Source: Pseudomonadota bacterium
GTDB taxonomy: Bacteria; Desulfobacterota; JAPLJL01
Assembly (NCBI GenBank): GCA_026388655.1
Contig: JAPLJI010000152.1
Span: forward strand, 1-39,734
Length of the DNA: 39,734 nt
Direction: 5' to 3'
The notes under the pieces are model-generated. The model ran no database searches, was not told the DNA's origin, and saw only the letters and a list, made by a program, of their open reading frames with translations. The first letter of the stretch is position 1. Every line of letters starts with the position of its first letter. The position numbers were made by a program, and so were the translations under genes. Positions 1,435 through 23,380 of this stretch are shown piece after piece.

Positions 1435-2871
1435 ATGATTCCGGATGATCCGGTTGATTTTCTGCTTTCGCTTTCCCGCTCCGAGTACCTGGGAATGAAG
1501 CCGGGGCTCGAGCGGATTCGCGAGCTCCTGGAGAAACTCGACCACCCGGAGGCCGCTTTTAACTCGGTCTTGATCGGCGGAACCAACGGGAAGGGCTCGA
1601 CTTCGGTGATTCTGGCCAGCCTCCTCGCCCGGGTCGCGGGGAAAGACGGAAAACCGCTCCGCCTGGGTCTTTACCTTTCGCCCCATCTCGTCAACCTGGA
1701 AGAAAGGATCCTGGTCGGGGGCAAACCGGTTTCCCGGGAACAGATCCGGGAAACGGCCCGGAAACTTCTGCCCTCCTTCGCTAACCTGTCCGACATAGCT
1801 TTGGCGAAGTCGGAAGCTACGGAGGGTTCCGCCCGCCGTAAGCTTGGTGGAGGTGCCACGGCTTTCAGCCGTGGGGCTCCACCCGCCGAAAAGGCGGAGG
1901 CGGGGCGGGACCGCTGGACCTTTTTTGAATTTATCACCGCCATCGCTTTCGCCTGTTTCCGGGATGAAAAGGTGGATCTGGCCGTCACCGAGGTCGGCCT
2001 GGGGGGCCGGCTGGATGCCACCAACGTGCTGAGCCCGCCGGTTTCGATCATCACGAATATTTCCCTGGAACATACCGAATGGCTGGGAAAAACCGACCGG
2101 GAGATCGCCCGGGAAAAATCGGGGATTATCCGGGAGGGAGGGGTGGTGGTGACCGGTGCCGAGGGTGAGGCGCGGGAGGAAATCCACCGGATCGCCGGAC
2201 AGAAAGGCGCCAAGATGCTATCATTAGGACGGGATTTCGCCGTGGCCAGGGCGAAATCCGGCGGATTTGATTACCAGGGTTTAAGTCTGGATCTGAAGGG
2301 ACTGCCCCTGTCCGGCCGCGGCGATTATCAATTTCGAAACGCCGCGCTGGCCCTCGCGGGTCTGGAGGTGCTGGCGGGGCGGATGAATTTTCAACCGCGG
2401 GAAAAGGAGATCCGGGCCGGATTGGATAGCTTCACGATTCCCGGCCGTTTGCAGATAGTAGAGAAGGAGGCGCCGATCGTCCTGGATGGGGCGCATAATC
2501 CCGGCGCGGCCCGGGTGCTGTCCGAGGAATTGAAAAGTATGTTTCCCGGGCGGAAGGCCCGGATAATTTTTGCCGCCATGCGGGACAAGGAAGTGGATAA
2601 AATCCTGGAGCAGGTTTTACCCCTGGCTTCCCGGATGATCCTGGCTGACCTGGGCGGGAAAAGGGCTTTGGCGCCCGCGGAGCTGGAAAAGATCATTCGG
2701 GACAAAAGCGCGGACCTTGATCTCGAAAAAGCTGACGGAGTGAAAGCCGCCTTGGATCTGGCCCGGGAGGGAATTCGGGAAGGCGAGTACGTCCTGGTAA
2801 CCGGTTCCCTTTACCTGGTCGGGGAAGCCCTCCGGGCTTTGGAATTGCCCGGTTACGTGCGGATAAATTGA
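1435..2871 (+). CDS. folC: Bifunctional folylpolyglutamate synthase/dihydrofolate synthase with in-frame repeat insertion
   Basis: FolC adds glutamate to folates and makes dihydrofolate from dihydropteroate in the cytoplasm. The Mur-ligase-type P-loop GTNGKGS is at residues 49-55 (Lys53). It is followed by YLSPHLVNLEERI, the core segment EVGLGGRLDATNV, SLEHTEWLG and the C-terminal VLDGAHNPGA. At 478 residues the protein is about 45 longer than usual. The excess falls between KLLPS (about residue 114) and RWTFFEFITAIAF (about 160), exactly where the DNA shows nested palindromes (1771-1912). The insertion keeps the frame and both conserved flanks, so the enzyme is probably functional with an extra loop. 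The ATG follows only a weak CAGG Shine-Dalgarno-like sequence. No folate or acc gene lies next to it in the window. Confidence 0.93.
   Translation: MIPDDPVDFLLSLSRSEYLGMKPGLERIRELLEKLDHPEAAFNSVLIGGTNGKGSTSVILASLLARVAGKDGKPLRLGLYLSPHLVNLEERILVGGKPVSREQIRETARKLLPSFANLSDIALAKSEATEGSARRKLGGGATAFSRGAPPAEKAEAGRDRWTFFEFITAIAFACFRDEKVDLAVTEVGLGGRLDATNVLSPPVSIITNISLEHTEWLGKTDREIAREKSGIIREGGVVVTGAEGEAREEIHRIAGQKGAKMLSLGRDFAVARAKSGGFDYQGLSLDLKGLPLSGRGDYQFRNAALALAGLEVLAGRMNFQPREKEIRAGLDSFTIPGRLQIVEKEAPIVLDGAHNPGAARVLSEELKSMFPGRKARIIFAAMRDKEVDKILEQVLPLASRMILADLGGKRALAPAELEKIIRDKSADLDLEKADGVKAALDLAREGIREGEYVLVTGSLYLVGEALRALELPGYVRIN
1771..1912. repeat. Palindromic element inserted in frame in folC
   Basis: Two adjacent imperfect palindromes lie inside the folC reading frame. 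The first (1771-1826) has CCCTCC/GGAGGG ends with a nested CTTCGC/GCGAAG and TCCGAC/GTCGGA. The second (about 1825-1912) has GGTTCCGCCC against GGGCGGGACC at its ends. Inside these are GGTGGAG (1846-1852)/CTCCACC (1877-1883), enclosing CACGGCT/AGCCGTG with a 3-nt loop, then CCGCC/GGCGG around GAAAA. The encoded residues are Ala/Gly/Arg/Lys-rich and have no counterpart in ordinary FolC. The idea resembles Rickettsia palindromic elements, but there is no evident sequence kinship. Confidence 0.75.
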
Positions 2872-2889: not shown

Positions 2890-3081
2890 TGAGACCGTTG
2901 CAAAAAGCTTTTTCTGTCATTCTGAGCCCCTTCAGGAGCGGGGCGAAGAATCTCTCTTTCGTCGGAGAAATCCGAAAAACCAGATCCTTCGCTTTGCTCA
3001 GGATGACAAAGAGGGAAGGACTCAGGCACCGTCCTGAATGAAATGAAGGAATGACATATCGAGGGTTTTGCAACGGTCTCA
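2890..3081. mobile_element. MITE-like element with 16-bp terminal inverted repeats
   Basis: TGAGACCGTTGCAAAA at 2890-2905 is matched exactly by its reverse complement at 3066-3081, giving a 192-bp element with no gene inside. Just inside the ends is a second, imperfect inverted pair built around GTCATTCTGAGC and GCTCAGGATGAC. This organisation suggests a non-autonomous element. No transposase is visible in the window. It fills most of the folC-ugd gap (2872-3190). Confidence 0.65.
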
Positions 3082-23231: not shown

Positions 23232-23279
23232 GTGAAAGGTGAAGGGTTCAGAGGTTCAAAGTTCAAGGTTCAAGGTTGA

Positions 23280-23370
23280 GACCAGAGACCAGAGACCAGA
23301 GACCAGAGACCAGAGACCAGAGACCAGAGACAAGAGACAAGAGACAAGAGACAAGAGACAAGAGACAAGA
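23280..23370. repeat. Thirteen-unit heptamer array abutting trpC
   Basis: Seven perfect copies of GACCAGA (23280-23328) are followed by six perfect copies of GACAAGA (23329-23370), ten bases before the trpC ATG. Upstream, 23249-23277 holds TTCAAAG/TTCAAGG heptamers. The array is stop-free in the trpC frame back to a TTG at 23276. A change of copy number could alter spacing or any N-terminal extension. Confidence 0.85.
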
Positions 23371-23380
23371 GACTTCACAG

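Follow-up and report, generated by a model that had tools for sequence, protein, structure and literature searches.

In-frame palindromic insertions in protein-coding genes are best known from Rickettsia and certain REP families, for which an empty site is not always available. The RPEs of Rickettsia are palindromic repeats of ~100–150 bp that lie in frame in housekeeping genes and are expected in protein loops; they are often intragenic, nearly half of them being so (PMC10969869). REPs of the GTAG/CGTC type have occasional in-gene copies, coding for 20–82 residues (PMC3733652, PMC2817692), and short mobile repeats that overlap open reading frames or are fused to them include QMITE1 and QMITE2 of Coxiella (PMC5896051) and the intragenic small mobile repeats of enterobacteria (PMC2759123). 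By working features, the known system that appears closest to the element described here is that of the palindrome-associated transposable elements (PATEs) of Haloquadratum walsbyi (PMC3119063). PATEs have no terminal inverted repeats, carry near-terminal palindromes with similar cores, leave no target duplication, are too short to encode a transposase, occur as strain-specific insertions and contain small palindromic modules nested in palindromes; the element in the present locus resembles them in every one of these respects.

The window analysed, 39,734 nucleotides in length, makes up contig C2 in full. The contig belongs to draft genome G000 (3.56 Mb, 94% complete), which was compared with its two known congeners, G001 (JAPLJL010000050.1, Lake Pavin; 82% complete) and G002 (JAQTNV010000008.1), both of them MAGs; all genomes used are draft metagenome assemblies. 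At 1435–2871 on the forward strand lies folC, encoding a folylpolyglutamate/dihydrofolate synthase of 478 residues with Pfam domains Mur_ligase_M and Mur_ligase_C and matches to FolC entries of the PDB. This is the only full-length folC found in G000, in which other matches to FolC concern the element-encoded peptide only. DNA alignment with G001 and G002, which both have the empty site, delimits a palindromic insert at 1772–1882 with a net length of 111 bp, equal to 37 codons in frame (approximately residues 113–149), its ends being ambiguous by 1 nt. The FolC proteins of G001 and G002 (79% and 76% identical to that of G000, respectively) are both exactly 37 residues shorter and lack the segment, which is absent also from the remaining FolC of the phylum in the alignment. 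Foreign palindromic DNA was thus inserted into folC in the G000 lineage after its split from the two known congeners.

The first-pass annotation, made from the letters of the window, had described ~140 bp of nested stem-loops at 1771–1912 and an in-frame, stop-free gain of ~45 residues in FolC. The fold stands, with the segment 1765–1920 folding better than 200 of 200 dinucleotide shuffles (z of −3.9 as DNA and −4.7 as RNA), as do the reading frame and the position; the size does not, for the foreign DNA is limited to the 111 bp and 37 residues given by congener alignment, and the borders first drawn were ~30 bp too wide. Within those borders, positions 1883–1912 (forward strand) are ancestral folC sequence outside the element: their G+C-rich arms are predicted to pair with the insert, yet they align with folC of G001 and G002. 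The same annotation had advised aligning FolC with close homologues and searching the genome for the element. The homologues lack the segment, so it is not a conserved stretch of protein, and the search yielded many more copies, so the element does not stand alone.

As had been supposed, the insert is one member of a repeat family, which has further copies elsewhere in G000 and in its congeners. Whole or in part, it matches ~40 other places in G000, and a consensus of full copies matches all three congeners. A covariance model based on 15 full copies finds ~19 copies in G000 and nine each in G001 and G002, as well as up to 35 related ones in genomes belonging to other families of the phylum, through which the spread is patchy (13/297 genomes by covariance model, 14/395 by DNA search). 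One full-length copy in a genome of another family (L100; G318:C241:917–1071) is 89% identical to the consensus, and reflects either a mis-binned contig or horizontal transfer from one family to another. Searches of plasmids, phages and viral contigs returned no match to the element, and a search of Rfam returned no family, with one sub-threshold chance hit only. It is a new repeat family in an uncultured lineage, of a known kind, comparable to Rickettsia RPEs and intragenic REPs.

In folC orientation, a full copy begins with CCCGCC directly after TTTA and comprises four hairpins in the order hp4, hp3, hp2 and hp1, with a length of ~151–157 bp, or of 183–184 bp where an extra 30-nt palindrome is nested in hp3. 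The core of hp4 is CCACGGG-ttta-CCCGTGG; hp3 is formed by CCCTCC...GGAGGG, hp2 by GCTTCGGCGGG...CCCGCCGTAAGC and hp1 by GTGGAGGTGCCACGGCT...AGCCGTGGGGCTCCAC. Palindromes are found near both ends of the element, hp4 and hp1 having a CCACGG..CCGTGG core in common. Terminal inverted repeats are absent, the left end CCCGCCTTCG being unrelated to the right end as reverse complement, GTGGAGCCCC; the right end reads GGGGCTCCA(C/T). Both end hairpins persist in distant families, where the middle is variable. At about 151–184 bp, the element is too short for transposase coding. QMITEs, unlike the folC element, have direct repeats as well as terminal inverted repeats, and those in functional genes sit at the 3′ ends.

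The folC copy consists of a long-form hp3 with inverted loop, the 3′ arm of hp2 and hp1, and is without hp4. Its hp3 module (1771–1826), a CCCTCC...GGAGGG hairpin whose inner loop runs the other way from that in canonical copies, shares 97% identity with copies on contigs C191 and C24 but lies on the strand opposite to the hp1 module of those copies. Nested in it at 1785–1814 is the inner 30-nt palindromic module (CCTGTCCGACATAGC...GAAGTCGGA), which is missing from short-form copies; related stretches also stand alone, with matches on C50, C32, C9 and C187. Only the 3′ arm of hp2 follows (1827–1843), the 14-nt 5′ arm TTAGCTTCGGCGGG of canonical copies being missing, and then the hp1 module at 1847–1882, with a predicted fold of GTGGAGGTGCCACGGCT-ttc-AGCCGTGGGGCTCCAC. 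This module forms the right end of the element, a conserved end that is listed at 42 sites among the loci fetched.

Most left ends have TTTA or TTA immediately before them. At folC the G000 flank is now CTTCTG, with no TTTA visible, and we infer its former presence from the empty site of both congeners, which reads TTTTA. An intergenic copy on contig C190 has an empty site in G002, where TTTTA is joined directly to CCGG, and target duplication is absent from all three filled and empty pairs: this one, folC, and the ispH case described below. Further copies are site-polymorphic, that on C119 being missing from G002 and, less exactly, that on C7 from G001; base-exact empty junctions were sought at the C7 and C118 sites and none was obtained. 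The insertion pattern is what IS200/IS605-type, single-strand transposition would leave, though it falls short of proof. As in IS200/IS605-derived PATEs, a hairpin-ended, non-autonomous element would have inserted beside the T-rich site in folC, behind TTT(T)A, with a candidate HUH/Y1 transposase presumably acting on it in trans. There are seven Y1_Tnp matches in G000, five of them with open frames of about 290–340 aa. When the flanks of 37 Y1 loci from ten genomes were scanned for both element ends there was no true match, no Y1 gene being flanked by the hairpins, and no TnpB was found in the eight genomes searched; these results, like the missing TTTA at folC, weigh against the reading. Because the search for an IS605-type transposon with the same ends had no success, the element is named PATE-like rather than PATE, and a partner may exist elsewhere. 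It is further unlike PATEs in being bacterial and in having in-frame coding copies, and the likeness drawn is one of features. On the whole, we consider it probable that a non-autonomous PATE-like hairpin element entered folC and that the copy there, a truncated one, is translated and tolerated.

Among the alternatives, the one that survives best, though we regard it as unlikely, is that the element is a REP/BIME-type composite moved by RAYT-like Y1 proteins of the genome, rather than an IS200/IS605-derived PATE. The Y1 frames of G000 would supply such proteins, the mosaic of palindromes is modular as in BIMEs, and the right end, read backwards, begins with GTGG, resembling the GT(A/G)G head of REPs. 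That head is present at one end only, however, and is GTGG in one subfamily but ATGG in another; the unit measures ~153 bp against 20–40 bp; and RAYT genes are described as always lying between two REPs, whereas no Y1 gene here is flanked by the repeat. A classical MITE, mobilised by a DDE transposase, would likewise be short, non-coding, multicopy and polymorphic in its sites, but such an origin is highly improbable, since terminal inverted repeats are absent and the target is not duplicated at folC, at ispH or at C190.

A PATE-like insertion is not confined to folC. Both folC and ispH are usually essential genes, and a second in-frame copy lies in the ispH of G001 (322 aa, LytB/IspH by Pfam), the only ispH found in that genome, in keeping with the first-pass view that the repeat can enter genes of essential type. 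The ispH insert is 93 bp, or 31 codons (approximately residues 144–174), with the element in the orientation opposite to that in folC; both element ends are kept, and most of hp4 and hp3 is lost. The site is empty in G000 and in G002, with TTTTC joined to CTGG at the junction; G001 and G002 are 93–96% identical around the insert, and all ispH homologues in the phylum lack it. As all genomes are draft metagenome assemblies, one must consider that a repeat was misjoined into folC during assembly, but this is highly improbable given that the flanks are contiguous and colinear with the congeners, that the insert is in frame, that the folC copy differs from every other copy, and that an independent in-frame case occurs in another genome.

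Both intragenic copies are internally deleted, as expected if selection spares only such copies. When 15 full copies were read in all six frames, only 4/90 frames were both in-frame and stop-free, and the folC frame would meet a TAG if the missing hp2 arm were present. A full-length copy in a gene would usually cause a frameshift or a stop; the folC copy, short of hp4 and of one hp2 arm, amounts to 111 bp in frame and free of stops. The 37 residues are therefore translated within a loop that varies naturally in length, two other FolC having ~20 extra residues there. The AlphaFold2 model of FolC, a check that had been advised from the start, gives pLDDT of 40–59 in the insert and mostly >90 elsewhere, and so predicts a disordered loop within a confident fold; the ispH insert is likewise predicted as a disordered loop in an otherwise confident fold. 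With dN/dS of 0.22–0.28 against the congeners, compared with 0.25 between them, and with every alignment-invariant residue retained, folC remains under purifying selection with the insert tolerated, and the enzyme is presumably functional. The description of the insert as 'domesticated' has to be withdrawn, there being no sign of a new function. That the segment is instead a conserved functional FolC domain or an RNA element, its DNA palindromes incidental, is scarcely credible in spite of the strong predicted fold, being refuted by the empty sites and opposed by its absence from congeners and from other FolC of the phylum, by the same DNA lying between genes, by the lack of an Rfam family and by its disorder in the AlphaFold2 model.

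Nor is any habit of inserting into genes supported for the family. Within the genus, 2/~37 copies are intragenic; among ~80 further copies fetched, ~70 of them from outside the genus, only one has at least 40 codons of open frame to either side of it (a 161-codon frame, at most a putative gene), and the ~70 include no convincing gene case, although this count may have passed over degenerate copies within genes of distant genomes. Most of the family accordingly lies between genes, and the copies inside genes are rare survivors. Open frames also span copies at L017, L018, L074, L084, L087, L089, L106 and L222; judged from their translations, these are probably spurious or outside the true gene, the copy at L018, for example, lying upstream of an ornithine cyclodeaminase-like gene and not within it. 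The folC and ispH copies resemble Rickettsia RPEs in their approximate length, in their frame within housekeeping genes and in their predicted loops; they differ in the low intragenic fraction, in their multi-hairpin architecture and in that the coding copies are internal deletion derivatives, the comparison being one of descriptions.

Enzymes taken to be vital can gain protein sequence from elements of this sort, but rarely do. With folC and ispH, a single family offers base-exact empty sites in congeners, from which tolerance, deletion and decay can be traced stepwise. It is conceivable, if on balance doubtful, that a single-strand-transposing element feeds coding sequence to essential enzymes, with hairpin-mediated internal deletion making a frame-breaking copy stop-free and in-frame, and that core proteins of this genus are lengthening now; if true, the exact empty sites in sister species would date each lengthening step.

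Palindromic DNA of another kind is present in the same window. At 2891–3080, between folC and a UDP-glucose dehydrogenase-like gene, lies a second element, MITE-like and unrelated to the one in folC; it has a long foldback and its inverted ends, GAGACCGTTGCAAAA, are perfect, with similar ends at L017, L018 and L027 of G000. At L018 and L017 (contigs C55 and C107 of G000), an hp3-type long hairpin is found inside or beside this other MITE-like repeat, with GAGACC(A/G)TTGCAAAA ends; from these two loci, palindromic modules may invade each other as well. Elsewhere in the window, at 23278–23373, 13.7 tandem copies of the 7-mer GAGACCA lie directly upstream of trpC, within the predicted start of its open reading frame.
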